Origin: Pedobacter sp. SYSU D00535
GTDB taxonomy: Bacteria > Bacteroidota > Bacteroidia > Sphingobacteriales > Sphingobacteriaceae
Reading direction: 5' to 3'
Assembly: GCF_017355855.1 (NCBI RefSeq)
Contig: NZ_JAFEWD010000011.1
Span: forward strand, 62,001 to 126,000
DNA: 64,000 nucleotides
The translations under genes were made by a program, and so were the position numbers. The notes beneath the pieces were generated by a model, which saw only the letters and a list, made by a program, of their open reading frames with translations, had not been told where the DNA came from and did not search any database. Below, in pieces: positions 15,870 through 35,584 of the stretch (position 1 is the stretch's first letter; every line of letters starts with the position of its first letter).

Positions 15870-16793
15870 TTACCAATAACAGGCTCTGTGATCTCTTCCC
15901 TTAACCGGCATTCTGAATTTCAGCATGATTTCATGTGATCCCTTTTGAGTTTTCGACATTTCCGTGGTAGAAAAGTCGTAGGAGTAACCAAACTGGATAT
16001 CCGGCGTGATAAAGACGGAAGCCAGGGCATCAAACGATTCGAACGACCGGTAAGAAGCCCCTATCCAAAACAGCTCCTTAATCAACAGGTTAGCATTCAG
16101 ATCAACCTGCATTGGAGATCCGTTCACGTACTTCACCAACACGTTCGGCTTGAACTTATAATCGTAGCTGAATTCAAAAAGAGAACCCGCCTGAAACATA
16201 TAATGTGGTTTCACCTTCGGAGAGGAAGCATCCTTAGAGAAGGACGTAAAATCCCTGGCAAGGAAATGAGGCGAGGAAATTCCGATATAAGCTTTTTCCG
16301 TAAAGTACATCACGCCCACGCCAAAGTTGCCGCGGAGACTGCTGGAATTATAGAACTGAGGATCGTTCATCGACTCGGGACTGATGTCGAAGTTCCGGGA
16401 GTAATCTGCCCGAAAACTGCTGAGCCCCCCATTCACTCCCAGAGACAGATAGGCGCCATCCGCCATCTCTACCCTTTGCGAGAAGGTGATGTATCCTCCT
16501 GTTTCCTGCAGCACCTCTCCTATCTGATCATTGATCAAAAGGGCTCCAATAAAACTATTTGACTCCTTGATGGGAGTATGGAAAGACATAGTCTGTGTTT
16601 GAGGAGCGCCCTTAAACCCCACCCACTGATGTCGTGATAGCACGGTCATCGTCATTGATTCATCTACAGCAGCGTAAGCAGGATTGATGGCCAGTGTGTT
16701 GAACATGTACTGTGTATACATGGCTTGCTGCTGGGCCTGTCCCAGCAAGACAGGCAACAGCAATAAAAACGTGGTGAAAATTCTTCTTATCAT
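15870..16793 (-). CDS. PorP/SprF family type IX secretion membrane protein
   Basis: 307 residues with a signal peptide ending at GQAQ, then QQAMYTQYMFNTLAINPAYA, the diagnostic opening of PorP/SprF proteins. Repeated amphipathic strands suggest an outer-membrane beta-barrel. In Flavobacterium, SprF is needed to secrete or display the gliding adhesin SprB, and type B T9SS cargo is commonly encoded beside a PorP/SprF paralogue. Here the gene starts 5 bp after the stop of the giant type B cargo gene on the same strand, so the two are almost surely co-transcribed and functional partners. Confidence 0.93.
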   Translation of the reverse strand: MIRRIFTTFLLLLPVLLGQAQQQAMYTQYMFNTLAINPAYAAVDESMTMTVLSRHQWVGFKGAPQTQTMSFHTPIKESNSFIGALLINDQIGEVLQETGGYITFSQRVEMADGAYLSLGVNGGLSSFRADYSRNFDISPESMNDPQFYNSSSLRGNFGVGVMYFTEKAYIGISSPHFLARDFTSFSKDASSPKVKPHYMFQAGSLFEFSYDYKFKPNVLVKYVNGSPMQVDLNANLLIKELFWIGASYRSFESFDALASVFITPDIQFGYSYDFSTTEMSKTQKGSHEIMLKFRMPVKGRDHRACYW

Positions 16794-16798
16794 AGTCG

Positions 16799-19700
16799 CT
16801 AGCGCTTAATAATCACGTATCCTTTATTCATTTTTGCAACGTTATCCACCTTAGTGCGGATGATATAGTAGTAAACTCCATCAGGCAAAGTAGATTCCTT
16901 GTTAGCAAGTAAGCCCGAATTAGCAACCCCGGTGAACACCTTGTCTTTATTATTATACCCCTTAATACGGAACACTTCATTACCCCAGCGGTTAAAGATG
17001 GTTACCTCATTGTCTGGGTATTTATCGATGTTATGGATCACGAAGCCTTCATTACCCCGTCCATCTCCGTTAGGTGAAGCATAAGGGTCTGGTGTGATGT
17101 GGTGATTCTCATCCGGCCCGAGTGGTCGTTCTGTAAGGAGCAGATCACCGATCGTTACCTCTGTTCCGCTTTCTATTTCCACAAAAGCGGATGGTGTAGC
17201 AGTAGCAATGTTGATCTCAGCTACTTCTTCAGTCTCCTCCAGGTAATCCTGAACCGTTTTTAAGGTTAGTTCCTGGTTGGTCGTTGTGTCTCCGGCCTTG
17301 ATCAGGAAGGAGTTGAAATCGCCACTTAACTTATAATCCGTATTCAACTCGGCATCACCCTTGTATTCCAGGTTGATGATTACATCCTGAAGCAGGGGCT
17401 CAGAAAGCACTGCCGTTACCTTTAACTCTTCCCCTTCTTTCAGGCTCACCAGCGTTGGCGTCAGCTTCACTTTCGTTTTCGGTTGAACGCCGATGGTAAC
17501 AAGGGCCTCGTCCGTAAGTTCTCCCGGGTCAGCGATCTGGTATTTGAACTCGTCGTAACCAGTAGGAATTCCGGCATTAGGAACATAGATGAATGAACCA
17601 TCTGCCTCGTTGAATGCTACCAATGTTCCTTTTGCAGGAGGAACGGTAACTTTGAATCTGATAGGGTCACCGTCCGGATCTGCATCATTTACGCCCACAT
17701 TCTCTCGCAATGTCCCCTCGTGCTGCACATAGAAGTGATCGTCCTCTGCTACCGGTGGGTCGCTGACTGGCGTTACGGTTACTGTAACATTCGCCTCATT
17801 TGACTCTAAACCGTTTAGATTTTTAACCGTGTAGCTAAACTGATGCGTACCGAAGTCATCTTTGGCTGGTGTATACGTTACGGTGCCGTCTCGGTTTACC
17901 TTCACCTGTCCTTTTGCTGGTTGAGCTTTGATAATTATACTGGTTGGATCGAGACCCGACACATCGCTATCGTTCGCCACCAGCGAGAAAGTTACCGGAG
18001 TATCCTCAGGCGTGGTAACAAAGTCGCTCTGCGCCGTAGGCAGCAGGTCATCGTCATGGATCACGCCTACGACAGAAGAAAACTCGAAACTCAGGGCCTC
18101 GCCGAACGGATTGGACAGGTTGCTGAAGTTGATCATATATTTCTCATCCCCTTCCACGAGGCGATCACCTTTGATCTGGATGGATATCTTTTGCTTTTCG
18201 CCTGCCCGTCCTGCAAAGGTCAGTTTGCCCGATTGAGCAAGGTAATCTTCACCTGCCTTCGCGGTTCCGTCGGCGGTAGCATAATCAAACAGGAACCCTT
18301 CGGCAGTTGCTAAAGGCAACGTCGCTGTGAATTCTGCTGTCACATATCCTGCGTTTCCTTCGGCAACAATCACCGGATTCGTAATTACGATTGGCGCGGC
18401 ATCGTTATCCTCAATGCGGAGTTCCTGTGGTGAATTTTCAACAAGTATTGCATTCGGCATGCTGCTCAGTACGATACCGGTAGTAATCTTCACTATCTCA
18501 GCCGGCTCAATGATGGCGTCGTCATTGATCACCAGATTTAGATTGACCTTGTTCAGCCCCGCCGGAATAGTTACAGAACCGGAAGTATTCACCAGGTAGT
18601 CGACCGAATTACCAAGGGCTGTTCCTGTCAGGTTGTATGGAATAACAATTGGCTTATCCGAATAAACGTTTGGAGATAAACTGAAGGTGAAGTGTCCGCC
18701 GGAGGCGCCTTCTTTCCCGTCGGTTTTGGTAATGGTAATTGTTCCATTGTCGTCGTTCAGGATGCGTCCCTTCGCCGGTGTTGCGCTGTAGGTTAAACGA
18801 TTGCCGAAATTATCTGACAGGTTTCTGAGGATCACGTTAAACTCTTCATCCGCTTCGATCTTATAATCGCCGTTCACCAGAATGGTCATGGTTTGCACCT
18901 CGCCTTCATTACCATCAAAATCAAGCGTGCCCGTTTTTGCTACATAATCATTATCGCTCAACCTGGCCGTACCATCCATGGTGGCGTAGCCGATGCTGAA
19001 CTTATTGCCTGTAGCGGCGCTGAGCGTTACGCTGAAGGTAGCCAGTGCCGGACCGCTATTGCCTTCCGTTACCACTACCGGTCCGCTGAGTTTTAATTCT
19101 GCTTTGTCGTTATCGCTGATGTTTAAAGACAGCGGCGAGTTGGCTACGACGATGTCTGCGTGCGTATTGTTCTCCACTAAACCGGTAGTAAGAACAACAG
19201 TTTCAAGTCCTTCGACAACCGCATCATCAATCACCGCTAAAGGAAGAACTACACTGTTTTCTCCAGGCGGAATGGTCACTGATGCAGTTGAAGCTATTCC
19301 GAAATCAACACCATCGCCCAGTGCAGTTCCGCCTAGCCCATAAGCAATGGTTGTCCAGTCGTCAGTGGAAACACCTGCCGGGAAGCTGAACTTGAAGCTC
19401 GCATCAGTTGCGCCCTCTGCTCCATGAACTCGGGAAATGATGATCCGGCTGTTATTGATCGTCTTATCATCATCCCGGATCAATCCTGTAGCCGGCACAT
19501 CCGGAAGCAGCAAGCGCCCGTCAAACTGGCGGGATAAGTTCCGCAGCTCCACGGTAAAGGTTTCGTCCCGTTCAATTTTCAAATCTCCTTTTACCGGTAC
19601 GATGATGTTGACAAAGTCACCCGCTTTTCCGGAGAAGGTCAAGGTACCTGATGCTGGCAGGTAATCATTGTCTGCAACAGTGGCTGAACCGTCGTTGGTA

Positions 19701-22700
19701 GTATAATCCACTGTGAAAGGATCTCCGGTAGCGTTATTAAGAGTCACTTTAAACACTGCGTTTATTGTTCCCCCATTACCTTCCGTTACTTCAACCGGCT
19801 GACTAATCGTCAAGGATGCCTCATCGTCATCTTCAATAATAAGCGAGTGCGGCGAGTTGGCAACCGTCAAGCCACTATAGTTCGTATTTGAGATAGCTCC
19901 CGTAGTAACGATAACGGTTTCTAAAGGCTCAAGGCCGGTATCATTTATCAGATCAATGGTAAGGACACCGTAGTTCTCTCCTGCCGGGATGATCACTGAT
20001 CCAACCTGTGGATTCGTATAGTCGATTCCGGCACCTTTGGCTGTCCCGCTCAGAGTATAATGGACAGTTGTCGAAGCATCGAGCGTTACCCCCGCTGGGA
20101 GGCTAAATGTAAAGCTTCCGTTCGCCGCACCTTCTGTTCCATTAGAGTGAGTAATGGTGATAGCCTTGTTACTGCCGTTATTGTCATCATCAAGAATAAT
20201 TCCGGTTGCGGACGTAGTGCCTAAAGTCAAAGCTCCGCCAAAGTCAGAAGATAGTCCGGTTAAACGAACCTGGTAGTTCTCATTTGACTCAATCTTCCTG
20301 TCGCCAATGATCACAATTTCGATCGGCTGCATCTCGCCTGCTTCACCCTGGAAATGGACCAGACCATTTACTACCGGCAGATAGTCGTTATCTGATGCCA
20401 GTGCGGTTCCATCTTCCGTTTGATAGTTGACGGAGAACCCTACTCCCGTTGCCCGGTTAAGGGTAACCTGGAAGACTGCTTTTGTAGATCCGTTGTGTCC
20501 TTCGGTAACTGTTACAGGTCCTGCAATAGACAAGGAAGCACCGTCATTGTCTGCTATGTTCAGCGTTTGAGGAGCATTGTCAACAGCGAGTCCAGTATAT
20601 TTATCATTGCTGATAAGCCCGGTGTTCACAGTCGCCGTTTCAGCTCCTTCTAGCAATGAATCATCGGTAATTACCAGAGGAAGGGTAACGTTATTCTCTC
20701 CAGGATTTATCGTTACTGTTCCCGTTGCCGGAATATCGTAGTCGATGCCGGCTGCGCTGGCAGTTCCACCCAGGTTGTAAGGGATAGATGTAGTGCCATC
20801 TGTACTTACTCCCGGAGGGAAACTGAATTTGATGCTTGCGTTTGCACCGCCTTCAGCGCCATTCACAGTCGTGATAGTTATTTTTCTATTAGCAGCGGTA
20901 TTATCATCGTCAATGATAGTACCGATCGCCGAAGAGCTGCTCAGTAGTAAGCTACTATTGAAATCCGTTGAAAGACCGCTTAATTCCAGCTTAAGGTTCT
21001 CATCGTCTTCAATTTTAAGATCGCCATTGACAGGCACGCTTATGGATATGCTCTCCGCTGCATCGCCTTTAAAGCTTACGGTTCCGCTTACCGGACTGTA
21101 ATCTCCGGCAGAAGCGCTCGCCGTCCCATCAGCGGTGGCGTAATTAATAGTAAACGGACCGGTGGCCTTATCCAGAGAAAGGTTAAAGTTGAGCGCACTG
21201 ATTCCGCTGTTGCCTTCAGTGACCGAAGATCCGGTGATGCTCAAGATCGCATTGTCATTATCCGTTATTTGGAGGGTCTGTGGAGAATTAGCTACCGTAG
21301 TGCCGTAAGGACTTGCAACAGTTCCTGTGCTTATTACTACTGTCTCAGTGCCTTCGATGGTCTGGTCATCCATCACGTCCAGTATTAACTGGACACTGTT
21401 CCCATTTGCAGGGATGGTGATCGATCCGATTGCCGGACTTGCTGTATAATCAGCCTTTGGCCCGCTGCTTGAAGCCGTACCGCCTAGTCCGTAGTGGATC
21501 ACGGTTTCTTTATCCGCAGTTACTCCGCCAGGTAAACTGAAGGTGAAAATTCCTGCTACAGGACCTGTTTCTGATCCGTTGGAAGAAGTGATCGTTACGT
21601 CTCCTGAATCGTCATTTGCAATAGTAGTTACTACCGGCGTAGTTTGAAGTACAGGGCGTTTAACTGCAGCACTGGTCAGGCTGCTCAACGAAACGCTAAA
21701 GGTTTCATCTGCTTCGATTACCCGGTCGCTATTGATCTGAACTGTAAAGCTTATCGCTTGGCCTGCTGTACCTGAAAAATGTAGCGAGCCGCTGCTGGCT
21801 GTATAGTCGTTGCCTGCTGTTGCCGATCCGTCGCTGGTTGCATAATCTACCGAGAAACCGCCGGCTACAGCCTGGTTCAGGGTAGCGGTGTAGGTAGCCA
21901 GTTGGGTACCGTTGTTGCCCTCGGTGATAGTTGCCGGACCAGTCAGGCTCACTACTGCCTGATCTTTGTCGATGATATTCAGGCTGTGTGGCGAGTTGGC
22001 TATCGTCACCGCATATGGACTGGTAATCAGATTCGTAGTGAGAACTACCGTTTCGATGTCTTCTACCGTTAGGTCTGCCAACACCGGAAGGGTCAGGGTA
22101 ACACTATTGGCGTTGGCCGGAATAGTTACATCTCCGCTGATAGCACCCGTATAATCCTCCCCACTTTTTGCCGTTCCCGACAAGGTATAGTTGATCTTCG
22201 TTTCCGTATCCAATGTTACCCCCGACGGGAAGCTGAACCTGAAGGTTCCTGCAACCGGACCCGCTTCCATACCATCAGTTGAGCTAATGGTGATTGTGGC
22301 GTTGTCATCGTTGGTGATGGTACCTGTGGCTGTAGCAGATGCTACCGGAATGGTTAAGCGGCCGTCAAAACTCTTGCTTAAGTTGCTTAACGTGATACTG
22401 AAATCCTCATTGATCTCTACTTTTCGATCTCCTTTTATGGCTATCACAATAGGTTGACTGCCCGCTGTTCCGTCAATATATAGCGTACCAGCTGCGGCGG
22501 TATAGTCATTATCGGCAACCGTAGCAGTTCCGTCGCTGGTTGCGTAGTTTACCGTAAAGGGCTCGGTGTCTTTATCAAGCGTAACTGTAAAGCTTAGCGT
22601 AGTTGTTCCGCTGTTGCCTTCCGCTACCGTAGCTCCGCTGACCCTCAAAGTTGCCTGATCATTATCTGCAATATCCAGGCTTTGCGGAGAATTGGCTACC

Positions 22701-25700
22701 GTGATCCCGTAAGGAGTTCCTACTGTACCCGTGGTCAACACGATTGTCTCGGTATCCTCTACTTTTGAATCATCAATCACCGGAAGTTCCAGCGTGAAGC
22801 TATTATCCCCGGCGGGGATAGTAATGGAGCTGGTACCTGCACCGATATAATCAGTGCCGGTCGCCGTTCCGCTTAAACTGAAATTGATGATAGTAGGTGC
22901 ATCTGCACTTACTCCTGAAGGGAAACTAAAGGTAAAGCTGGCCGGAACTGGACCTGTTTCTGAACCGCTCTCCGTACTGATCGAGATTGCGCCTGAGTCA
23001 TCATTTTTAATGGTAGTTACAACAGGAGTACTTTGAAGAGCCGGACGGTTACTAAAGGAACTGCTCAGGTTGCTCAGTACTACACTGAAGGTTTCATCCG
23101 CTTCAATTCTCCGGTCGCTGCGAATCAGCACATCAAAGGAGTGCGATTCTCCGGCTGTACCTGAGAACGTTACGCTTCTGCTTACCGGAGTATAGTCGCT
23201 CGTACTGCTTGCTGTTCCATCGGTGGTTGCATAATTAAATGTGAATGAACCAGTGGTTGCCTTATCCAGTGTGATGGTATACGTGGCGATTTGTGTACCA
23301 GTATCTCCTTCTGTGATAACAGCAGGACCTGTTAATGACACAGTTGCCTGATCGTTATCAGTGATCGTCAAACTTTGAGGAGAATTGGCGACGGTGATGG
23401 TATTATAAGGACTCGTGATCAAACCAGAGTTGAGCACAATGGTTTCGGTATCTTCTACCAGCGCGTCGTTAATCACAGGAATTGTCAGTACGGTGCTATT
23501 CTCATCTTTTCCAATGGTTACGCTTCCGCTGATGGCTCCTGTATAGTCGGCGCCGCTTTTGGCAGTCCCCGATAGGTTGTATTCGATTTGGATAGGCGTA
23601 TCTGTGGTGGTACCTGCAGGCAGACTGAAGGTAAAGGTACCTGGCGTTGGTCCCGTTTCAGATCCGTTGCCCGCACTTACAGTAATGATACCGGCATCGT
23701 CGTTAACGATGATACCCGTTGCTGGGGAACCACTAATCACGAGGCTATTGTTAAAATGGCTGGACAGCTTACTTAAGCTCATGCTGAAGAGCTCATCCCC
23801 CTCTATCTTTTTATCGCCATTAATGGCCACCGACAGGGTTTTGCTCTCTCCCGCCGTACCGTCGAAGTTGAGGGTACCACTAAGCGCCGAGTAGTCATTA
23901 TCCGAAACTTTCGCACTGCCATCGGTAGTTGTATAGTCTACGCTGAAGGAGTTAGTCGCCTTATCCAGGCTCACCGTAAAGTTGATCACCTTTGACCCGC
24001 TGTCGCCTTCCGTTACCGTTGCCCCGGTAAGACTCAAGGTAGCCTGATCGTTATCTGCGATGGTTAACGTTTGAGGAGAATTGGCTACGGTGATCCCGTA
24101 AGGACTACCGATATGGCCAGTCGTCAGAATCACTGACTCGGTGCCTTCCACAATGCTGTCATCGATCACGCCGAGGCTCAGTTGCGCAGAATTAACATTT
24201 GGCGGTATGGTTACCGACAAAGTTCCGGCACCAGTATAATCAGCAGCTGTAGCTGTACCGGTCAGTCCGAACTGAATAGTAGTTGCAGCATCCGAACTTA
24301 CTCCAGCAGGGAAGCTGAACGTGAAAGTTCCGGCTACCGGGCCAGTTTCCGAACCATTGGAAGAACTGATGTTGATTGCTCCGCTATCGTCGTTTACAAT
24401 ACTTGTTACCACCGGCACGTTCAGAATTACAGGTTTATTACTGAACGCACTGATCAGATTACTTAAGCTGACGCTAAAGTTTTCATCGATCTCTATCTTC
24501 TTGTCGCCGTTTATTTGAACGGTGAACGTTTCTGTCTCTCCTGCCGTACCTTCAAACTCCAGCGTGCCGCTGCTGAGCTCATAATCGTCATCCGCTACAG
24601 TAGCAGTCCCGTTTGAGGTAGTATAGTCTACCTTGAAACTACCGGCTGTCGCCTGGTTTAATGTAACCGTATAGGTCACCAGCTGCGAGCCATTCTCACC
24701 TTCGGTAATAACGGCGGGACCAGTAAGACTTACTACTGCCTGGTCTTTGTCAATGATATTCAGACGTTGAGGAGAATTGCTGATAGTTACCGGATGCGAG
24801 CTGCTGATAATTCCTGTAGTCAGAATGACCGTTTCTGTATCTTCTGCAAGAAGATCTGCCAGTACCGGAAGTGTTAATGTAGTACTGCTGGCATCCTTAG
24901 GAATCGTTACGCTTCCGCTGATGACACCGGTATAATCCTTGGCACTTTCTGCCGTACCCGACAGGCTATAGTTGATGATGATCGGCGCGTCTGTTGTTAC
25001 TCCCGCCGGAAGGCTGAAGGTGAAGGTACCAGGTACTGGCCCGGCTTCCATACCATCTGTAGAAGTGATTGTCACTACTGCCAGATCATCGTTGGTAATA
25101 GTTCCCGTTGCAGTAGCAGCGGCAATGTTTAAGCGGCCATCGAAGGACGTGCTCAAACCGCTGAGCGTCATAGTCAGCGTTTCATCTCCTTCCACTTTGC
25201 GATCACCGGTCACAGCTACCGTCACGGTCTTGCTTTCGCCAGCAAGTCCGCTAAAGTTTATAGGTCCGCTGGCTGCACTGTAATCGTTATTCGCGGTAGT
25301 GGCGGTGCCATCTGCCGTAGCATAATTTAAGCTAAACGGACCTGTGGCTCTATCCAAGGTCACCGTAAAGTTCAGGAGGGTAGTTCCGCTGTTTCCTTCA
25401 GTTACTGTTGCCCCGCTGATGCTTAACGATGCATTATCGTTATCTGCGATCTCCAGGCTTTGCGTCGGGTTTGCTACAGTGATCCCGTAAGGATTGCTTA
25501 CGTTTCCTGTCGTCAGAACTACAGTTTCTACTCCTTCCGTAATCAGATCATCTATCACCGGAAGGTCTAAAGTAACGCTGGTCTCTCCGGCCAGAATGGT
25601 AGCGGAAGTAATGCCGGCACCCGTATAATCCGGGCTCTTGGCAGTACCGCTTAAACCGAAGTGAACGGTGATGTCAGCATCAGCAGTAACGCCTGACGGC

Positions 25701-28700
25701 AAGCTAAAGGTAAAACTGGCAGGTACAGGACCGGTTTCAGAACCGTTGGCGGCGGCAATAGTGATTGCTCCCGAATCGTCGTTTTGAATAGTTGTTACTA
25801 CCGGAGCAATCTGAATTGCAGGAGGGTTGCTCAGGGAGCTTACCAAATTGGTCAGGGAAACGCTGAAATTCTCATGAGCCTCGATTTTCTTATCACTATT
25901 GACAAGAATCGTGAAGCTCTGCGGTTCTCCAGCTTTTCCTGCAAAATTCAGCTGACCACTGCTGCTCACGTAGTCATTGTCGGCTGCTTTTGCTGTTCCA
26001 TCGGCAGTAGCATAATTTACCGAGAAGCCGCCTTGAGTAGCCTTATCAAGCACTGCTGTGTAGGTGACTAGTTGAGTGCCGTTATTCCCCTCGGTGACAG
26101 TCGGAGGACCGCTCAACGTCACAGTGGCCTGGTCGTTATCGGCAATAGTTAAACTTTGAGGAGAATTATCGACGGTCAGGGCGTACGGAGCAGTGATAAT
26201 GCCCGTACTTAAAATGATCGTTTCTGTATTTTCTACAATATTATCGTCGGTTACAGGAAGTGTTAGTGTGACGCTGCTTTCATCTTTAGGAATGGTAACG
26301 CTTCCGCTGATAGCTCCGGTATAATCCTTACCGCTTTCGGCTGTTCCGGACAAGGTGTATTCGATGGTCGCCGCAGCATCCATGGTCACTCCGCCAGCCA
26401 GGCTGAATGTGAAAGTACCTGGAGCAGGACCTGTTTCGGATCCGTTTGCAGGAGTGATGGCAATTAGCCCAACATCATCGTTGCTGATGATTCCGGTAGC
26501 AGGCGAACCGTCGATCACCAGTGCGTTATTGTAGTTGTTAGACAGGTTCCGCAGCGTCAGGTTGAAGTCTTCATTCGCTTCGATCTTTTTATCGCCGTTA
26601 AGGCTTACCTGTATAATCCTTGTTTCACCGGCATCTCCCTCGAAGCTTAGGGTTCCGCTTCTGGCGATGTAGTCATTATCGGAAACTTTTGCTGACCCAT
26701 CTGAGGTCAGATAGTCGACAGTAAATTTCCCTTCCGTTTTCTGGTTAAGGGTCACTGTAAAGTTAAGCACCTTGTTTCCTGCATCGCCTTCCGTTTTCGT
26801 TTCACCAACTATCCGCAGGGTAGCCTCGTCATTGTCTGTGATATCGAAGCTATAGGGCGAATTGCTTACTGCTAGCGCGTAAGGACTGGTAACACCGCTG
26901 ACAGTAAGAACGACTGTCTCTTTCCCTTCGAGAATTGCATCGTCGATCACCGGTAAGGTTAGCGATACGCTGTTGGCCCCGGCAGGGATGGTTACAGAAT
27001 TAGTCAGAGGCGCGGTATAATCAAGGGCTGTAGCAGTTCCACTCAGGCCGAAGTCAATCTTGGTCGCCGCATCAGCAGTAACGCCGACGGGAAGACTGAA
27101 GGTGAAAGTTCCAGAAACGGCTCCTGCTTCTGAGCCATTGGTCGACGAAATGGTGATGGCACCAGAATCGTCGTTCGTAATTTTTGTTACTACGGGAGTG
27201 GTTTGAAACGCGGGACGCTTAGTTACGGAGCTGAGCAGGTTATTGAGCACTACGCTGAAGTTCTCGTCGGCTTCTATTTTCCGATCGCTGTTAATGACAA
27301 GGGTGAATGTCTGGGTTTCGCCGGCACTTGTTCCGGTAAACGTCAACTTGCCGGTACTGCTTTCATAATCATTATCTGCATCGGTAGCGCTGCCATCTAT
27401 GGTATCATAATCTACTGTGAATCCGCCCTGAACAGCTTTATCAACTGTTGCTGTGTAGGTAACGTTTTTTGTTCCGTTGTCGCCTTCTGTCACCACTGCC
27501 GGGCCTGTCAGGCTCACCATTGCCAGATCATTATCAATAATAGAAAGCGTCTGCGGCGAGTTAGCGGCAGTTACCGTATAGGGGCTATTAATGTTTCCGG
27601 TGGTGAGTGTGATAGTTTCGGTATCTTCTACTACTGCATCATCCGTCACATCCAGACTCAACACCACACGGTTGTCACCTGCAGGGATGGTAACGCTTCC
27701 GCTGATGGCGGCCGGGTAATCCTCTCCGCTTTTCGCTGTTCCTGACAAGACATATTCGATCACGGTTGGAGCATTTACACTTACCCCAGACGGGAAGCTG
27801 AAAGTGAACGTTCCCGGTATGGCACCGGCTTCTGCTCCGTCTGTAGAAGTGATCGTGATCGTCGCACCATCATCATTCCTTATTTCTCCTGTGGCAACAC
27901 TGCCCGCAACGGGGATACTCAAACGGTTGCCGAAGTTGCTGCTTAAGTTGCTTAGCGCGATACTAAAATCTTCATCCGTTTCTACTTTTTTATCACCATT
28001 AATGGAGACTACTATGGTATGGCTCAGGACGTTTTCGTCAAAAGTCAAGGTTCCGCTTTTTGCCACATAATCGTTATCTGCAAGGGTAGCCGAACCGTCG
28101 CTGGTCGCATAATTTACGGTAAATGGAGCCCCCAAATTTCTATCGACGGTCACAGTGAAGCTTAGGGTGGTAATTCCGTTGTCACCCTCATTTACCGTGG
28201 CTCCGCTGATGGCCAGTGTAGCATGATCGTTATCTGTAATATTTAGGGTTTGCGGAGAGTTCGCTACGGCGATGCCATACGGACTATCTACCGCTCCTGT
28301 TGTCAAAATAACTGTTTCGGTATTTTCTAATAGATCATCGTCCGCTACCAGAAGAGTTAGCGTAACACTATTGTCTCCTGCGGGGATGGTAACGGTGCTG
28401 GTGCCTGCTCCTGTATAATCGGTACTGCCAGCTGTTCCTGTCAATCCCAGATGAATCACCGTCTCTTTATCCGCAGTTATTCCTCCAGGAAGACTGAAGG
28501 TGAAGGTTCCCGCTACCGAACCTGCTTCTGATCCGTTGGAAGAAGTGATCGTTACTTCTCCTGAATCATCATTTGCAATAGTAGTTACTACCGGCGTAGT
28601 TTGAAACACCGGACGTTTCGCAGCGGCACTGGTCAGGCCTGTGAGCGAAACGCTGAACGTTTCATCCGCTTCGATTACCCGGTCGCCGTTGATCTGAACT

Positions 28701-31700
28701 GTAAATTCTATTTTTTCACCGGCATCACCTGAAAAATGAAGCGAGCCGCTGCTGGCTGCATAGTCACTGCCGGCTGTTGCCGATCCGTCTGTAGTTGTAT
28801 AATTTACCGAAAAGCCCCCGGCTACAGCCTGGTTCAGGGTAGCTGTGTACGTAGCCAGTCTGGGCCCGGTATCACCTTCAGTGATGGTCACCGGACCAGT
28901 CAGGCTCACTACTGCCTGATCTTTGTCAATGATATTCAGGCTATGCGGCGAGTTGGCTATCGCAACCGGATACGGACTGCTGACGCCGTCGATGGTCAAA
29001 ATCACTGTTTCGATATCTTCTACCATCAGGTCTGCCAACACCGGAAGGCTCAGGGTAACACTGCTGGTATTGGCCGGAATAGTTACGCTTCCGCTGATAG
29101 CACCCGTATAATCCTCCCCGCTTTTTGCTATCCCCGACAAGGTATAATTGATCTTTGTTTCCGCATCCAGCGTTACCCCCGGTAAGCTGAACGTGAAGGT
29201 TCCTGCAACCGGACCCGCTTCCATACCATCTGCCGAGCTAATAGTGATTGTGGCGTTGTCGTCGTTGGTGATGGTACTTGTGGCTGTAGCAGATGCTACC
29301 GGAATGGTTAAGCGGCCGTCAAAACTCTTGCTTAAGTTACTTAACGTGATACTGAAGTTCTCGTCGATCTCTACTTTCCGATCTCCTCTTACTTCTATTA
29401 CAATGGGTTGACTGCCGGCCGTTCCGTTAAAGTACAGGGTTCCGCTTTTAGCGGTGTAGTCGTTGTCTGCTACTGTGGCAGTTCCGTCGCTGGTTGCGTA
29501 GTTCACGGTGAAGGGCTCCGTGTCTTTATCCAGCGTAACCATAAAGCTTAGGACCGTTGTTCCGCTGTTGCCTTCAGCTACGGTAGCTCCGCTGACCCTT
29601 ACCGTAGCTTGGTCGTTATCTGCAATCTCCAGCGTTTGCGGAGAATTATCCACCGTTATCCCGTAAGGAGTTCCTACCGTACCCGTGGTCAGTACGATTG
29701 TTTCGGTATCTTCCACCCTTGAATCATCAATCACCGGAAGTTCCAGTGTGAAGCTATTATCCCCGGCAGGAATAGTAATGGAGCTGGCACCTGCACCGGT
29801 ATAATCAGCGCCGGTTGCCGTTCCGCTTAGTCCGAAATTGATAACCGTAGGTGCATCTGCACTTACTCCTTCAGGGAAACTAAAGGTAAAGCTTCCGGAA
29901 ACAGGACCGGTTTCTGATCCGTGAGATGGAGTGACGGTAATTTTTACATTGGCCGGGGTCAAATCATCGTCGACAATAGTACCAGTAGCCACCGAATTGC
30001 TAAAACTCAACCGTCCACCAAAGTTATCGGAGAGGTCAAATATTTTGAACTTCAGGGTTTCGGTCAATTCGATCATCTGATCGCCCCGCACCTGCACGGA
30101 AACGTCGAAGGATTGTCCGGGCATTCCGGAAAAATTCAGAATATCCGTCTTAGGAATATAGTCGTTACCAGCAGCTGTAGCAGTCTCATCCTCGGTGGTG
30201 TATTTTACTGAGAAGCTTCTGCCGGTAGCCTTGGCAAGAGTCACCCTGAAAGTCAACGTAGAGAAGCCAGAATTTCCCTCTGTAACCGTTGCATTCGCCA
30301 CAGAAAGGGTTGTGTAATCATCGTTGTCAGATATCTCAAGTGTTTGCGGAGAATTACTTACGACGATCCCCGGCAAATCACTGTTGTTTACACCCGTTAC
30401 GGTTAACCTCACTGTCTCAATATTCTCAATGATATCGTCCTCGGCTACCAGCAAGGATAGGGTAGCGCTATTTTGTCCGGCGGGAATGGTTATAGACGTA
30501 GCTGAAGGTGAAGCAGTATAGTCCGTTCCACCGCCACTTGCAGTTCCGTCCAGGTTAAAAGAGATAACGGTAGGGGTACTGGCAGCAACTCCCGGAGGAA
30601 AACTAAATGTAAAGCTACCGTTTTGCATTCCCTCAACACCGTCGATTTTACTTATCGAGATGGTTCTGTTAGCAACTGTATTATCATTATCAGTAATATC
30701 CGCCGATACGGCGCCTACCGGCTCTAATGCGATGGAAGAAGTAGTGCTGCTGGATGCAGTGATCAGATCAATAGTGATAGTTTCTGTGGGTTCGATGATT
30801 GAATCATCGAGCACTGTAGCATCCAGCGTTACAGAATTCGTATTTGCCGGGATGATAATAGTGGTGTTGTCGGGAAGCGTAAAGTCAGTGCCATTAGTTG
30901 CTGTTCCGCCGACTATATAATTGACCGTTGTAAGTGCTGAGTTTGTTATCCCCGCAGGATAGTTAAGTGTAAACTGCGCTTTTGTTCCGGGTTCTGCACC
31001 GTGACTGGTTCTTGTAAGAGTAATCCTGGTGTTTGCCGGAGTATTGTCGTCGTCCACAATGTCAGCGCTTACTCCGTCTGTAGGATCCACTGTCAGACCC
31101 GGGACGCTAATAGGGTTTGTGGCAGTTGTCAGAGTGAGGATAATTGTTTCCGTCGCCTCAATTAATTTATCATCAGAGATAGCTGGAGAAATAGCCACGG
31201 AATTTGCTCCCGCCGGAATGATTACAGAAGTGCCTAGTGCAGCGTAGTCTGTTCCATTAATGGCAGTACCAGAGATTAAATAGTTGACCGTCGTAGCCGC
31301 GGCACTCGTCACCCCTGCCGGATAGCTTACTGAAAACTGAACGTTCGTCCCGGGTTCTGCACCGTCCGAAACTTTGGTTAACGTTATAATGCTATTTCCG
31401 GCGATATTATCATTGTCGCGAATGTCAGCAGTTACTGTTGTTAAAGGATTTACTGCTAGTACTGATATCGAGTTGGTGGCTGAGGACAGTCCCAGGCTTA
31501 CTGTTTCTGTAGCTTCAATCACATGATCATCTACAACAAGAATATTAATATCGGCCGAGTTGGAGTTAGCAGGAATAATTACCTCGCCTGTCAAGCTTGT
31601 ATAATCTGTTCCGTTAGTAGCTGAACCTCCAATCACGTAAGTAACTCTGGTAGGTACCGAGCTCACATAACCAGCGGGAAAGCTTACCTTAAAACGGCCG

Positions 31701-34700
31701 TTTACCAGCCCTTCTTCCGCGTCCGAGTCTTTTGTGATGGTAACAACGTTGTTTGCCGCGATATTGTCGTTGTCCGTAATATCGATACTCTCGGGCGAAG
31801 AGATTACATTTAAGGAAACGCTTCCGCTACTGGCAGAAGTAAGGGTAAGAACCACTGTTTCCGGCGCTTCAATTACGTGATCATCCGTAACTATCACATC
31901 GATAAACGCGGAGTTAGCATTTGCAGGGATCGTAACCGAGCCTGAAAGAGTTGTATAATCTGAGCCGTTTATTGCGGTGCCCGCGATCGAATAGTTTACA
32001 GTGGTTGGTGTCGATCGAACAATGCCCGCAGGGTAGCTTACTCTGAAACGTCCATTTGTAGAAGGCTCGCCACCATCGAATTCTCTGCTTAAAGTGATCG
32101 TATTATTCGCAACGGTGTTGTCATTGTCCAGGATATTAAGTGAGAATGGGGAGTTTGCAACCCCTATTCCGTAATATTTTGAATTGCTGATAGTCCCAGT
32201 GGTAACGGTCAATTCTTCAGAGCCCTCGATGATCAAATCATCAGTGACAGCACGAGAAAGAGTAGCGCTGTTTGCGTTTGGCGCGATGGTCACTGTTCCG
32301 GTAGTAGCTCCCGCATAGTCAACTCCGTTACCCACTGCGAGGCCACTCAAATTGTAGTTTATGGTGGTTGTTCCATCCGTTGATACTCCCGTAGGAAAAC
32401 TAAAAATAAACTGCGCGTCTGCTCCGCCTTCTTCTCCATCCACTTTAGTGATGGTGATCGTTTTGTTGGCAGCGTTATTATCGTCGTCAAAGATTGAGAT
32501 CGTAGCGGGAGAACCGCTGATCTTCAACAAGCCGCCAAAAGTAGTTGATGGATTATCAATTACAATTTTAAAGGCTTCGTTCCCTTCGATCTTAAAATCA
32601 CCATTTACAGCGATTTGAATATCATGGTACTGGCCCGGATTATTAGCCAGGAAAGTCAATGTCCCGGATTTAGCAACGTAGTCGTTATCGGCCACTGTTG
32701 CAATGTCGTCTTGTGTAAAATAGTCAATGGTAAAATCGCTGCTGGTTGAGATATCCAGCGACACCCGGAATGTCACATAGCTTGGCCCCGAATTTCCCTC
32801 TATTACCTGCGCTGGTCCGCTGAGTAAGACAGCGTTATCGTCATCAAAAATACTTAAGGTATGAGGGGTATTTGCAACGTTGATACCGCTGTAAGGCGTG
32901 GTAATGGTGCCGGTGCTGATCTCTATTGTTTCTGTTCCTTCCAGAATAACATCATTGATCACCGGAAGGGTAACGGTAAAACTATTGGTAAGCGCTGGTA
33001 TGATAACGGTGCCTGTAGTGGCTCCCGTGTAATCCGTACCACCGCCAGTCGCGGTACCGCCCAAAGTATATTGAATTTCCGTGTCTTGATCGGCTGTAAT
33101 TCCGGTAGGGAAACCAATCGTAAACGAAGCACCGGGGGCTACACCTTCTGCTCCGTCACTTGAAGTAATTACAAGTGCCCTGTTGACAGGAATATTGTCA
33201 TCGTCGACGATAGTTCCTGTTGCGGTGGCAGTTGTAATGACGCCGCCAGTGCTCGGATTTGCAATAGTAATGGTGAATGTTTCATCCGCCTCGATAATCT
33301 GATCTGTTCGGATGGGAATGAAAAACGTTTTGCTTGCTTGCCCGGCGGGGATTGTCACAGAACCTGATAGCGAACCGGCAAAGTCCGTAACGTTTGTAGA
33401 AACGTGTGTAAGGGCATAATCAACGGTAATATCGCAACTAACATTGGCGGGAGAAGCCGTCACTGTGAAAGCCATATTGTGACTTCCTCCGGATCCTTCG
33501 GCTGCTGAAACGTTGGCAATGCTTAGATTGCTGAGGGAAACAGGAGTCGAATCATTTTGGATATTATTACAACCCGCCACACCTGCATCGCACTCTACCT
33601 GAGGGTCAGAAGGAATGTCAGCATCCGGATTGGTAGCATCAGGGTCGTAGACATCTGCAGGCCTCATGATACTTGCCTTCACATCTATTGCGTTCGAAGG
33701 CGGCAAAGCAGAAACAGTCCCGGTAACGGTGAAGGTCAGCACCGAGGCGTTGCTCATATTTAAAGAAGCATTGTACTGGTTGCCTATCAGCGTACTGGAA
33801 ACGACACTCGCCGATCCGGATGTCAGAACCGGGGTAACTACCACACCTGTTAACTGGGCAGGGAACGTGAAATTGAATTTGGCATCGCTTACTCCGCTGG
33901 GGCCATTATTTCTGACCGAAACGGTGTAGGTCTGCTGCTGTCCGATACACAGTCCGACGGTCTTACTCTTAATAATGGGCAGCACTTCCAGATTGGCCCT
34001 TAAAAAGTCGATCTGAACGGAAGGAGCAATTGGCGTACTGAATACGTAAGTCCAGGTATCAAGTCCTTTTTCGTTCCCGAAACTACCAGAGCCATATCCC
34101 GTGGAGCCCCATTTATGACCGTTTGTTGCGCTGCTGACTCCGTTTACGGAAGTGTTTCGCGGGCTTGATGGATTAGAGTTGGATGATATATCCGAGTCAT
34201 CCCAGTAAACCGTCTGATCTCCGGCCCCGACTCCATTTGTTCGGGTAATAATTATCCCTGTGGGGTTATTTTCTACGTCTAACAGCGGGAAATGCACTTC
34301 TCCTGCCCGAAGTATAATCTGCATAGTAGAGCTGTTGAAGGAGCCTAACACCGGATTTCCGGCTCCATCGAGCCCGTCCCAGAAAACAGTATTGCTGCCA
34401 ACCACTGCAGGATTGGTAATGATCCTGTCAACTGCATCTGTAAAATCACCGTCCTTATTTGCGTCAATTTTTATACTATAATTACCTGTCTGATTCGCGT
34501 CGAAGATAAAATTACCGCCCATACTACTATGAGCACCAGCTTGATTGGATGTTCCTTCTTTACCTGCGAAGGAAAAATTAGTCAATTCCGGACTCACCGG
34601 GTTAGTCTTTAACCAGGTAGTTGTTGCTGTACCAAGAGTTGCTGCCAGACCATCCGTGGTCCGGGCGGGTGCAGAAGCCGGAAGATCGGCAGCTGGCGTA

Positions 34701-35584
34701 TTGAAGAACAACTTGTGGGTAACATCAGCAGCAGTGTCCTCGGCTAAAGGAGCATGTATCGCGACTATAGAGGTGCCGTCCTGACTTGAATAGCTCGGGT
34801 TGGCGCCATTTTTAAATCCTTTATTATTAGAGAAAAAAGCGAAAGCATTCCCGGCAAGGCCATTTGCATTTACTTCATAAATATAACCATCGTTTGTAAG
34901 CACATTAAGCTTCCCCGTAAATCTCGCATCAAATTCACCAAGTGAGCCCTGGAGTAAATTCATGTAAGCCCTCCCCGGGATAAACGCAGTACCTGCTGTA
35001 TTACGAACAGAAACATCGAAAGCAGCTATGTAAGGAGAATTATTGGGCTGATCCCAAGCATTGGCACTCAGTCTGTCGCCGGGTGTATTTGTACTATTAT
35101 TCGTACCATTGCTACCTACAAAAAAAACGGACCAGACTCCCACCTCGGAGGCCTTCGCTGTAACAGTGTAGGGCGTGTAGCCTCCTGCATTCGGCAGAGG
35201 TCCTGCCATTTCCTGCGCCCTGGTGTCAATGCGACCAACGGTGGTCGAATTCCCCGACTTATAGGTGGTTCCGTCGGGAGAGACTAAAACAATAGTGCCA
35301 TCGCCCAAGCCCTGAACGCTGGAACCCACATTGATCGTTTCGCCAGCCTGAACATACACTCGTACCAGCCCCTGACCTACCCAAGGCAATGAGACGGTCG
35401 TTCTGGTTGAACTGTACAGATATACACGGTGCCCTCCATTAGGGTTGAGTTCTTTACTCCCTTCTGCGAAAGCAAGCGAACAACTGAGGATTCCCAGTAA
35501 AAAAAGAAGTGAATTTTTTTTTAAGGGAAAGGTGGCAACGGAACGATATATAGGAAGCAGATAGTTGAGTAATCGTCTCGACAT
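16799..35584 (-). CDS. Giant Calx-beta repeat surface protein with T9SS type B sorting domain (SprB-like adhesin candidate)
   Basis: 6261 residues, uninterrupted. Residues 1-40 form a signal peptide (cleavage SLAFA|EG). About 540-670 holds a DUF11/Ig-like segment (CIGQQQTYTVSVRNNGPSG). From ~684 to ~5845 I count 44 tandem Calx-beta-type units averaging 117 residues. Most end in DDDN, NDDS or DNDQA acidic turns, likely Ca2+ sites. Two cadherin-like repeats follow (~5846-6035), then one more Calx-beta-like unit. A gliding-motility-associated C-terminal domain begins near 6165 (SPNGDGRGNEGF, FNRWGNEVF, DGVYYYII). I see Cys only in the first ~750 residues. The tail directs export by T9SS. Size, tail and adjacent PorP/SprF gene resemble SprB. 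Adhesion or gliding is inferred; the ligand is unknown. Confidence 0.93.
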   Translation of the reverse strand: MSRRLLNYLLPIYRSVATFPLKKNSLLFLLGILSCSLAFAEGSKELNPNGGHRVYLYSSTRTTVSLPWVGQGLVRVYVQAGETINVGSSVQGLGDGTIVLVSPDGTTYKSGNSTTVGRIDTRAQEMAGPLPNAGGYTPYTVTAKASEVGVWSVFFVGSNGTNNSTNTPGDRLSANAWDQPNNSPYIAAFDVSVRNTAGTAFIPGRAYMNLLQGSLGEFDARFTGKLNVLTNDGYIYEVNANGLAGNAFAFFSNNKGFKNGANPSYSSQDGTSIVAIHAPLAEDTAADVTHKLFFNTPAADLPASAPARTTDGLAATLGTATTTWLKTNPVSPELTNFSFAGKEGTSNQAGAHSSMGGNFIFDANQTGNYSIKIDANKDGDFTDAVDRIITNPAVVGSNTVFWDGLDGAGNPVLGSFNSSTMQIILRAGEVHFPLLDVENNPTGIIITRTNGVGAGDQTVYWDDSDISSNSNPSSPRNTSVNGVSSATNGHKWGSTGYGSGSFGNEKGLDTWTYVFSTPIAPSVQIDFLRANLEVLPIIKSKTVGLCIGQQQTYTVSVRNNGPSGVSDAKFNFTFPAQLTGVVVTPVLTSGSASVVSSTLIGNQYNASLNMSNASVLTFTVTGTVSALPPSNAIDVKASIMRPADVYDPDATNPDADIPSDPQVECDAGVAGCNNIQNDSTPVSLSNLSIANVSAAEGSGGSHNMAFTVTASPANVSCDITVDYALTHVSTNVTDFAGSLSGSVTIPAGQASKTFFIPIRTDQIIEADETFTITIANPSTGGVITTATATGTIVDDDNIPVNRALVITSSDGAEGVAPGASFTIGFPTGITADQDTEIQYTLGGTATGGGTDYTGATTGTVIIPALTNSFTVTLPVINDVILEGTETIEISTGTITTPYSGINVANTPHTLSIFDDDNAVLLSGPAQVIEGNSGPSYVTFRVSLDISTSSDFTIDYFTQDDIATVADNDYVAKSGTLTFLANNPGQYHDIQIAVNGDFKIEGNEAFKIVIDNPSTTFGGLLKISGSPATISIFDDDNNAANKTITITKVDGEEGGADAQFIFSFPTGVSTDGTTTINYNLSGLAVGNGVDYAGATTGTVTIAPNANSATLSRAVTDDLIIEGSEELTVTTGTISNSKYYGIGVANSPFSLNILDNDNTVANNTITLSREFDGGEPSTNGRFRVSYPAGIVRSTPTTVNYSIAGTAINGSDYTTLSGSVTIPANANSAFIDVIVTDDHVIEAPETVVLTLTSASSGSVSLNVISSPESIDITDNDNIAANNVVTITKDSDAEEGLVNGRFKVSFPAGYVSSVPTRVTYVIGGSATNGTDYTSLTGEVIIPANSNSADINILVVDDHVIEATETVSLGLSSATNSISVLAVNPLTTVTADIRDNDNIAGNSIITLTKVSDGAEPGTNVQFSVSYPAGVTSAAATTVNYLISGTAINGTDYAALGTSVIIPAGANSVAISPAISDDKLIEATETIILTLTTATNPISVPGLTVDPTDGVSADIVDDDNTPANTRITLTRTSHGAEPGTKAQFTLNYPAGITNSALTTVNYIVGGTATNGTDFTLPDNTTIIIPANTNSVTLDATVLDDSIIEPTETITIDLITASSSTTSSIALEPVGAVSADITDNDNTVANRTISISKIDGVEGMQNGSFTFSFPPGVAASTPTVISFNLDGTASGGGTDYTASPSATSITIPAGQNSATLSLLVAEDDIIENIETVRLTVTGVNNSDLPGIVVSNSPQTLEISDNDDYTTLSVANATVTEGNSGFSTLTFRVTLAKATGRSFSVKYTTEDETATAAGNDYIPKTDILNFSGMPGQSFDVSVQVRGDQMIELTETLKFKIFDLSDNFGGRLSFSNSVATGTIVDDDLTPANVKITVTPSHGSETGPVSGSFTFSFPEGVSADAPTVINFGLSGTATGADYTGAGASSITIPAGDNSFTLELPVIDDSRVEDTETIVLTTGTVGTPYGITVDNSPQTLEIADNDQATVRVSGATVAEGNSGTTVLSFMVTLDKDTEPFTVNYATSDGTATVADNDYTAKSGTLYFNGTAGSQPIVIEVRGDRKVEIDENFSITLSNLSKSFDGRLTIPVASATATSTITNDDNATITISSADGMEAGPVAGTFTFSLPGVTLDAETKINYTLSGIAKSGEDYTGAISGSVTIPANTSSVTLSLPVLADLMVEDIETVILTIDGVSSPYPVAIANSPHSLNIIDKDQAVVSLTGPVTITEGDTGPRLATYTATLNQAVAGGFSVNYTTTDGSATAGSDYAASSGSLHFSGDAGEKIEFTVQINGDRVIEADETFSVSLTGLTSAAAKRPVFQTTPVVTTIANDDSGEVTITSSNGSEAGSVAGTFTFSLPGGITADKETVIHLGLTGTAGSTDYTGAGTSTVTIPAGDNSVTLTLLVADDDLLENTETVILTTGAVDSPYGIAVANSPQTLNITDNDHATLAISGATVNEGDNGITTLSFTVTVDRNLGAPFTVNYATSDGSATLADNDYVAKSGTLTFDENVLSHTIVVSINGDKKVETDEDFSIALSNLSSNFGNRLSIPVAGSVATGEIRNDDGATITITSTDGAEAGAIPGTFTFSFPSGVSVNAPTVIEYVLSGTAKSGEDYPAAISGSVTIPAGDNRVVLSLDVTDDAVVEDTETITLTTGNINSPYTVTAANSPQTLSIIDNDLAMVSLTGPAVVTEGDNGTKNVTYTATVDKAVQGGFTVDYDTIDGSATDADNDYESSTGKLTFTGTSAGETQTFTLVINSDRKIEADENFSVVLNNLLSSVTKRPAFQTTPVVTKITNDDSGAITISSTNGSEAGAVSGTFTFSLPVGVTADAATKIDFGLSGTATALDYTAPLTNSVTIPAGANSVSLTLPVIDDAILEGKETVVLTVSGVTSPYALAVSNSPYSFDITDNDEATLRIVGETKTEGDAGNKVLNFTVTLNQKTEGKFTVDYLTSDGSAKVSDNDYIARSGTLSFEGDAGETRIIQVSLNGDKKIEANEDFNLTLRNLSNNYNNALVIDGSPATGIISNDDVGLIAITPANGSETGPAPGTFTFSLAGGVTMDAAATIEYTLSGTAESGKDYTGAISGSVTIPKDESSVTLTLPVTDDNIVENTETIILSTGIITAPYALTVDNSPQSLTIADNDQATVTLSGPPTVTEGNNGTQLVTYTAVLDKATQGGFSVNYATADGTAKAADNDYVSSSGQLNFAGKAGEPQSFTILVNSDKKIEAHENFSVSLTNLVSSLSNPPAIQIAPVVTTIQNDDSGAITIAAANGSETGPVPASFTFSLPSGVTADADITVHFGLSGTAKSPDYTGAGITSATILAGETSVTLDLPVIDDLITEGVETVVLTTGNVSNPYGITVANPTQSLEIADNDNASLSISGATVTEGNSGTTLLNFTVTLDRATGPFSLNYATADGTATTANNDYSAASGPINFSGLAGESKTVTVAVTGDRKVEGDETLTMTLSGLSTSFDGRLNIAAATATGTITNDDLAVVTITSTDGMEAGPVPGTFTFSLPAGVTTDAPIIINYSLSGTAESAKDYTGVISGSVTIPKDASSTTLTLPVLADLLAEDTETVILTTGIISSSHPVTISNSPQRLNIIDKDQAVVSLTGPAVITEGENGSQLVTYTVTLNQATAGSFKVDYTTSNGTATVADDDYELSSGTLEFEGTAGETETFTVQINGDKKIEIDENFSVSLSNLISAFSNKPVILNVPVVTSIVNDDSGAINISSSNGSETGPVAGTFTFSFPAGVSSDAATTIQFGLTGTATAADYTGAGTLSVTIPPNVNSAQLSLGVIDDSIVEGTESVILTTGHIGSPYGITVANSPQTLTIADNDQATLSLTGATVTEGDSGSKVINFTVSLDKATNSFSVDYTTTDGSAKVSDNDYSALSGTLNFDGTAGESKTLSVAINGDKKIEGDELFSMSLSKLSSHFNNSLVISGSPATGIIVNDDAGIITVSAGNGSETGPTPGTFTFSLPAGTTTDTPIQIEYNLSGTAKSGADYTGAISGSVTIGKDENSTVLTIPVINDALVEDTETIVLNSGLITSPYNTITVANSPQSLTITDNDQATVSLTGPAVITEGDTGTQIATYTITLDKATTGSFTFNYATTDGTASSTSDYTPVSRSVTFSGTAGESHSFDVLIRSDRRIEADETFSVVLSNLSSSFSNRPALQSTPVVTTIKNDDSGAISISTESGSETGPVPASFTFSFPSGVSADAPTIINFSLSGTATGTDYIGAGTSSITIPAGDNSFTLELPVIDDSKVEDTETIVLTTGTVGTPYGITVANSPQSLDIADNDQATLRVSGATVAEGNSGTTTLSFTVTLDKDTEPFTVNYATSDGTATVADNDYTAAAGTLYIDGTAGSQPIVIAIKGDRKVEINEDFSITLSNLSKSFDGRLTIPVASATATGTITNDDNATITISSTDGMEAGPVAGTFRFSFPSGVTLDTETKINYTLSGTAKSGEDYTGAISGDVTIPANANSVTLTLPVLADLTVEDIETVVLTTNLITSPYAVTIANSPHSLNIIDKDQAVVSLTGPATITEGNNGTQLATYTATLNQAVAGGFSVDYATSDGSATAGNDYTASSGSLHFSGTAGQAISFTVQINSDRVIEADETFSVSLSSLTSAAVKRPVLQTTPVVTTIANDDSGDVTITSSNGSETGPVAGIFTFSLPGGVTADKETVIHYGLGGTASSSGPKADYTASPAIGSITIPANGNSVQLILDVMDDQTIEGTETVVISTGTVASPYGTTVANSPQTLQITDNDNAILSITGSSVTEGNSGISALNFNLSLDKATGPFTINYATADGTASASAGDYSPVSGTVSFKGDAAESISISVPVNGDLKIEDDENLKLELSGLSTDFNSSLLLSSSSAIGTIIDDDNTAANRKITITTVNGAEGGANASIKFSFPPGVSTDGTTSIPYNLGGTASAAGIDYDIPATGTVTINPGENNVTLPLVITDDSLLEGAETATVNTGLISNDKYTGLAVDNAPQTLNIADNDGASLSIAGPVTVTEGHNGSTKAVFQVTLNRATGVGFSVNYQTEDGTALASDNDYLPVVNGLVHFQGEAGEMQPIEIVIIGDRKIESNENYQVRLTGLSSDFGGALTLGTTSATGIILDDDNNGSNKAITITHSNGTEGAANGSFTFSLPAGVTLDASTTVHYTLSGTAKGAGIDYTNPQVGSVIIPAGENYGVLTIDLINDTGLEPLETVIVTTGAISNTNYSGLTVANSPHSLIIEDDDEASLTISQPVEVTEGNGGTINAVFKVTLNNATGDPFTVDYTTNDGSATVADNDYLPASGTLTFSGKAGDFVNIIVPVKGDLKIERDETFTVELRNLSRQFDGRLLLPDVPATGLIRDDDKTINNSRIIISRVHGAEGATDASFKFSFPAGVSTDDWTTIAYGLGGTALGDGVDFGIASTASVTIPPGENSVVLPLAVIDDAVVEGLETVVLTTGLVENNTHADIVVANSPLSLNISDNDKAELKLSGPVVVTEGNSGPALATFSVTLSAATGNKFSIGYATMDGTARLSDNDYVAKTGTLDFDGNEGEVQTMTILVNGDYKIEADEEFNVILRNLSDNFGNRLTYSATPAKGRILNDDNGTITITKTDGKEGASGGHFTFSLSPNVYSDKPIVIPYNLTGTALGNSVDYLVNTSGSVTIPAGLNKVNLNLVINDDAIIEPAEIVKITTGIVLSSMPNAILVENSPQELRIEDNDAAPIVITNPVIVAEGNAGYVTAEFTATLPLATAEGFLFDYATADGTAKAGEDYLAQSGKLTFAGRAGEKQKISIQIKGDRLVEGDEKYMINFSNLSNPFGEALSFEFSSVVGVIHDDDLLPTAQSDFVTTPEDTPVTFSLVANDSDVSGLDPTSIIIKAQPAKGQVKVNRDGTVTYTPAKDDFGTHQFSYTVKNLNGLESNEANVTVTVTPVSDPPVAEDDHFYVQHEGTLRENVGVNDADPDGDPIRFKVTVPPAKGTLVAFNEADGSFIYVPNAGIPTGYDEFKYQIADPGELTDEALVTIGVQPKTKVKLTPTLVSLKEGEELKVTAVLSEPLLQDVIINLEYKGDAELNTDYKLSGDFNSFLIKAGDTTTNQELTLKTVQDYLEETEEVAEINIATATPSAFVEIESGTEVTIGDLLLTERPLGPDENHHITPDPYASPNGDGRGNEGFVIHNIDKYPDNEVTIFNRWGNEVFRIKGYNNKDKVFTGVANSGLLANKESTLPDGVYYYIIRTKVDNVAKMNKGYVIIKR
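21500..22990 (-). repeat. Long internal duplication, copy 1
   Basis: About 1.49 kb covering roughly units 31-35, very similar in DNA to 28457-29947. A matched anchor (CTTTGTC followed by TGATATTCAGGCT) is at 21964 here and 28921 there, an offset of 6957 bp = 2319 codons. The encoded segments share long identical stretches such as NYATSDGTATVADNDYTA. Confidence 0.75.
28457..29947 (-). repeat. Long internal duplication, copy 2
   Basis: Partner of 21500-22990, covering roughly units 11-15. One in-frame difference is visible near 29180: this copy lacks a codon in the FSFPSGVTL stretch, reading FSLPGVTL. Beyond the ends, similarity falls to the ordinary unit-to-unit level. Confidence 0.75.

Follow-up and report, generated by a model that had tools for sequence, protein, structure and literature searches.

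What is the giant Calx-beta protein that Pedobacter sp. SYSU D00535 encodes next to a gene of the PorP/SprF family, and is it moved along the cell surface or held in place? Type B adhesins are of both kinds: the gliding machinery moves some, others are fixed, and the two have been told apart by imaging protein by protein (PMC12618676, in part). The window analysed here, a 64-kb stretch of the genome, had been interpreted in an earlier note as carrying an SprB-like surface system. The features on which the present analysis rests are the following.

16799..35584, minus strand: gene of the 6261-aa Calx-beta megaprotein, an unbroken ORF with a collinear orthologue
35465..35584, minus strand: N-terminal 40 aa, probable signal peptide, judged by eye
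33539..35464, minus strand: N-terminal head, aa 41-682, beta-rich, with DUF11 near its end and no confident fold match
18047..33538, minus strand: 44 Calx-beta units, aa 683-5846, of two unit types that mostly alternate
28565..29962, minus strand: units 11-14, aa 1875-2340, resembling units 31-34
21608..22996, minus strand: units 31-34, aa 4197-4659, the counterpart of units 11-14
17144..18040, minus strand: stalk, aa 5849-6147, made up of a pair of Big_9/cadherin-like domains and one degenerate Calx-like domain
16802..17143, minus strand: type B T9SS tail, aa 6148-6261 (CHU_C)
15870..16793, minus strand: PorP/SprF-family carrier, 307 aa, modelled as a 14-stranded outer-membrane barrel
15879..15881, minus strand: codon of Cys305, the third residue from the carrier C-terminus

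The ORFs and Pfam profiles bear out the earlier description of an unbroken gene of 6261 residues with about 44 Calx-beta units and two cadherin-like repeats. Calx-beta (PF03160) scored 485.8 bits in one half of the protein and 560.5 in the other (cut-off 27), and the same scan returned two Big_9/Cadherin stretches and, at E 0.001, no SprB repeats (PF13573) in either half. The type B tail assigned in the earlier note is supported by CHU_C (PF13585, 69 bits, cut-off 27) but stays below the NCBIfam type B cut-off of 35 bits (TIGR04131; 24.3 bits when the protein was scanned and 30.9 when the genome was searched), which is a calibration and not the definition of a type B substrate. At the other end, a hydrophobic stretch terminates, by eye, at AFA-EGSKEL, and E18 and G19 of the aligned N-terminal piece are invariant in 10 of 10 aligned sequences, our own included. 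The ORF upstream of the megaprotein gene was named by eye as an Era-like GTPase gene.

Repeat arrays are difficult to assemble, and units 11-14 and 31-34 are 79-89% alike, which would favour an assembly or annotation artefact, with repeats collapsed or expanded and a frame open by chance. For the frame this is ruled out by Paradesertivirga mongoliensis, because its 6280-aa orthologue, 73% identical, is collinear over 44 of 44 units, and no gap in the alignment reaches 20 aa. Seven further long orthologous frames, one of which ends at a contig edge, also count against an artefact, and we give it next to no credence.

The units measure 113-121 aa each, and a model built from the 44 of them recovers 45 stretches, of which the final one is a degenerate unit beyond the cadherin-like domains. 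Neighbouring units (lag 1) have a mean identity of 0.28, which rises to 0.47 for lag 2 and 0.50 for lag 4. By loose motifs, a first-turn E and a D-Y (or S-Y, D-F) site are present in all 44 units and an E..E pair in 42, and all 44 units end in DND, NDD, DDD or DKD. We take these conserved acidic motifs to be the Ca2+ positions of Calx-beta domains, and stiffening of the rod by Ca2+ is plausible on the strength of the motifs. With the degenerate unit counted, complete orthologues range from 25 units (Arcticibacter) to 53 (Desertivirga xinjiangensis), compared with 45 here; in the type strain of Pedobacter glucosidilyticus the orthologue has 38 units, and the carrier there belongs to the clade of our own.

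Units 11-14 and 31-34, which lie 20 units apart, share a within-species identity of 0.79-0.89 in our genome and of 0.92-1.00 in P. mongoliensis, as high as or higher than their likeness to orthologues (0.64-0.79; one tie). The pattern is one of concerted evolution within a single register. In D. arenae the units most like each other are spaced by 12, and in D. xinjiangensis by 8, 12, 16 or 20. The 53-unit Calx megaprotein of the latter (L143-L144, 7188 aa) has no directly adjoining carrier, and a cysteine-type carrier of this species (L046) is located on a different contig.

The carrier gene lies 5 bp downstream of the megaprotein gene on the same strand, as had been described, and its family is confirmed by both profiles (PF11751, 257.8 bits, cut-off 22.3; TIGR03519, 257.9 bits, cut-off 90.55). 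Structure prediction yields a 14-strand barrel (pLDDT 85.7), with Cys305 modelled within a 12-residue tail following strand 14. T9SS complexes were 2 of the 5 best PDB matches in the fold search, and chain F of the matched T9SS complex structure is presumably PorV; the carrier matched none of the PDB sequences up to E 1. Between our genome and P. mongoliensis, the carriers are 84% and the giants 73% identical. The pair is much more distant from D. arenae and D. xinjiangensis, which belong to the family Sphingobacteriaceae and are given as the same genus as our organism: the carrier identities are 60% and 48%. For another carrier of our genome, L114, the identities are 60% with D. arenae and 56% with P. 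mongoliensis. Horizontal transfer of the megaprotein pair is possible.

The T9SS genes on which the earlier interpretation depended are present in the genome (4.89 Mb, 99.9% complete). GldK (598 bits), GldL (235), GldM (373), GldN (182), PorV (470), SprA (2663) and GldB (273) all exceed their cut-offs, and GldJ, at 429 bits, is just under its cut-off of 458.2. A DUF6089 protein (87.4 bits) is probably PorG, as judged by eye from its neighbour genes. That no other gliding gene is found in the window holds for the eight neighbouring ORFs and for the genome searches with GldM, GldJ, SprA, PorG and GldB, which gave no match within the 64 kb.

In the genome there are 13 matches to PorP/SprF and 14 to the type B tail, 11 of the latter above the cut-off, and all 13 PorP/SprF genes come after a tail gene, with gaps of 1-439 bp. 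Since the megaprotein pair is one of 13 such pairs, the pairing alone proves little, and adjacency was rejected as proof of an SprB system. The earlier interpretation is partly supported. There is good support for an SprB-like type B adhesin of the T9SS that has an SprF-like carrier to itself, and export and anchoring of the megaprotein by this carrier are very likely; strictly, the megaprotein is not SprB, as it has no SprB repeats, and the carrier, with one tail cysteine, is not SprF.

Whether such an adhesin would move may be legible in the last residues of its carrier. In Flavobacterium SprF, cysteines of the tail connect the adhesin with the moving track; they are required for movement and not for export (Liu et al. 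2025, PMC12635249, in part). A PorE neighbour, on the other hand, has been connected with static type B pairs (Gorasia 2022, PMC9143113; Paillat 2025, PMC12618676; both in part). Our carrier has one Cys at position -3 instead of Cys-X-Cys, and no PorE-like (OmpA-type) ORF was found on its strand within 4 kb downstream. The earlier note had left the choice between a mobile and a static adhesin open; because of the tail cysteine and the missing PorE gene, a mobile megaprotein is favoured.

Across the 13 carriers of the genome, 4 have a tail cysteine without PorE, 3 have PorE without the cysteine and 6 have neither; three other carriers thus also have a tail cysteine, so that the megaprotein pair is not the sole candidate. 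The PorE neighbours of the three pairs contain an OmpA domain and PD40, plus TPR or carboxypeptidase-regulatory-like hits, some of these matches being weak, a layout that we take to be that of P. gingivalis PorE (PG1058). The six carriers with neither mark follow type B tail genes and are near-identical in their own tails (LSKL or LSKLKK); L118, L119 and L120, on contigs C16 and C1, are among them, and the one partner scanned has YDG and MBG domains. One PorE-type pair includes an SprB-repeat protein (L115, at the end of contig C11, cut by the contig end). SprB repeats were therefore rejected as a mark of mobility: they do not mark mobile adhesins, since they also occur on a PorE-type pair of this very genome.

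We scored a cysteine in the last 12 aa of the carrier against a PorE-like OmpA gene downstream. Among 93 carriers, comprising loci picked by similarity to our pair plus those of our own genome, none had both, 28 had the cysteine without PorE, 34 PorE without the cysteine and 31 neither. In an unselected survey covering 78 of 90 non-own hits from 10 genomes, the corresponding counts were 4, 31, 21 and 22, with 3 of the 21 PorE cases being OmpA-domain fusions. A tail cysteine and a neighbouring PorE gene thus seldom occur together (Fisher p 2e-7 for the 93 carriers and 5e-4 for the survey, values from which relatedness is not removed). On a tree of 164 carriers the cysteine needs at least 10 changes, and a tree-aware independent-pair test of cysteine against PorE on these 164 rows, with 5 pairs on starred branches, was not significant. 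Three PorP/SprF barrels of survey genome G054 (L213, L214 and L251) are fused to an OmpA domain and have no Cys in their last 12 residues; the fused domain is possibly a built-in wall anchor. The open-access literature searched yielded no statement of the cysteine/PorE rule or of an exchange of adhesin bodies, no paper on Calx-beta together with SprB, and no phenotype for the organism studied here.

The cysteine itself is concentrated in the tail and conserved. Among the 164 carriers, the share of cysteine is 3.5% in the last 12 residues vs 0.13% in the remainder after residue 30, and Cys at -3 is found in 25 of 25 members of our carrier's clade. These 25 cysteine-tailed carriers had been picked by their tails, yet in the 164-row tree, computed after removal of the last 15 residues, they group together with support 100 and to the exclusion of all other rows; in a smaller tree, the cysteine-tailed clade was separated with 100/100 support from six PorE-type carriers. 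The likely partner is equally in place: Cys316 of our GldK aligns with PorK Cys356, and the probable PorG of the genome has a single tail Cys. PorK Cys356 is the residue that links PorG in P. gingivalis, and its match in F. johnsoniae, GldK Cys343, links SprF (PMC12635249, in part).

In relatives the base of the megaprotein is retained and its body changes. Among the genomes of 17 relatives, 9 gave a match to the head (aa 1-680), a weak one in one case, and the last 114 aa gave exactly one strong match in each of the 11 relatives searched with the tail, which included all 8 head-less genomes (58-70% identity, at least 132 bits; next best match 62.5 bits). Seven tail proteins from head-less genomes, three complete and four running off a contig end, all carry SprB repeats over the cut-off and no Calx units; in the protein of the eighth genome (L028, 1322 aa) there is a single SprB stretch together with one weak Calx-like hit. 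The seven are homologous to the megaprotein over their last 413-450 residues at 45-48% identity, and thus the stalk, too, is present in SprB-repeat proteins of relatives. In five of them the homology begins at aa 5849, with the last Calx unit ending at 5846, and in L278 and L279 the alignment extends 18 and 37 residues further.

More distant loci, L044 and L045, have SprB repeats on the gene adjoining a cysteine-type carrier, and at L043 the partner, 669 aa long, has only the tail; on the carrier tree, body type changes at least 3 times. The tail class occurs in 18 of 81 family genomes, as a single copy in 16. Two genomes have two copies: in P. mongoliensis one copy has a Calx body and the other Ig_7, and in P. 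puniceum one has a Calx body and the other is an SprB-repeat frame of 2221 aa. Conservation of the tail class goes with that of the carrier. The Calx-beta rod is an alternative body on a base of stalk, tail and carrier that is used with SprB-repeat bodies in other Sphingobacteriaceae. This suggests that the adhesive body can be swapped in gliding bacteria while the motor-attached part is retained. The SprB-body gene L276 and the Calx-body genes L136 and L137 have a Fasciclin gene upstream, and our own gene does not.

Set beside known systems, the pair resembles SprB-SprF of F. johnsoniae in joining a giant repetitive type B substrate to a PorP/SprF carrier, in having no PorE gene beside it (PMC9143113, in part), in the Cys of the carrier's C-terminal tail (PMC12635249, in part) and in the GldJ-GldK-GldN genes of the genome. 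It differs in having a Calx-beta array for SprB repeats and one Cys for Cys-X-Cys, and its movement is a prediction. The SprB-repeat proteins of Pedobacter psychrophilus, P. arcticus and five others (L276-L282) share the tail class and have a same-clade carrier in the genome, but their body is of SprB repeats, the head was not found and the carrier gene is on another contig in 7 of 7. PG1035-PorP-PorE of Porphyromonas gingivalis and Fjoh_3952-3951-3950 of F. johnsoniae likewise hold a type B substrate by a PorP-family barrel; unlike our pair, they have a PorE wall anchor and belong to the static class (PMC9143113, PMC12618676, both in part). The Na+/Ca2+ exchangers (3us9, 8sgi, 3rb7) share the Calx-beta fold family and acidic motifs, whereas here dozens of tandem copies form a rod in a secreted bacterial protein. 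The kind of system is known; its body here is a new one, and its carrier has a single tail cysteine.

We regard it as reasonably probable that the megaprotein is a mobile, track-coupled Calx-beta T9SS adhesin on an SprB-type base, coupled by a disulfide between Cys305 and GldK and serving gliding. A Ca2+-stiffened Calx-beta rod with an N-terminal head would be held at its C-terminus by its own PorP/SprF-type barrel, after export through SprA with this carrier, with the tail as the anchor. Carrier Cys305 would form a disulfide with Cys316 of GldK in the gliding track, the adhesin would then be pulled along the cell surface, and adhesion would be provided by the head. One strain of a species with an orthologous pair, Pedobacter glucosidilyticus DD6b, has been described as gliding (PMC4642753); the same paper states that for the type strain gliding had not been reported.

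An adhesin that is not moved along the track is the less likely outcome, but one with points in its favour. Not all type B pairs move (PMC12618676, in part), and 63 of 81 family genomes are without this tail class, which is thus not generally needed for gliding. A single cysteine was, moreover, insufficient for agar gliding in F. johnsoniae: the one-cysteine SprF (C324A) gave no gliding on agar, while linked molecules still moved (PMC12635249, in part). Against immobility stand the lack of a PorE gene beside the pair in a genome where three other pairs have one, the invariance of the tail cysteine in 25 of 25 clade members, and the SprB-repeat bodies that relatives place on the same base. That the protein is not mainly an adhesin, its Calx-beta rod being a Ca2+-dependent surface coat, a spacer or a receptor on the same export base, seems quite improbable to us. 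The length and regularity of the array would suit such a role, as would a head whose model (pLDDT 68.8) has no confident fold match, the hits listed in the fold search being mostly Ig-like and loose, with TM up to 0.16 of the query. The head is nevertheless conserved in nine orthologous stretches aligned with our own, its place at the tip of the rod would be the layout of an adhesin, and Calx-beta and SprB-repeat bodies replace one another on one base.

For mobile adhesins such as the one favoured here, a wider proposal can be offered, which we hold tentatively and at somewhat less than even confidence. The gliding adhesins of Bacteroidota would be modular, with a constant base coupling to the track through the tail cysteine and bodies of SprB, Calx-beta or Ig_7 type, and throughout the phylum the last dozen residues of the carrier would state its destination, a Cys for the track and a PorE neighbour or fused OmpA domain for the wall. 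This modular-base reading and the cysteine/PorE rule are of specialist interest. If the carrier tail predicts the fate of its adhesin, many unstudied adhesins of Bacteroidota could be sorted from sequence, and the exchange of bodies, if true, would mean that motility is independent of the SprB repeat as such.
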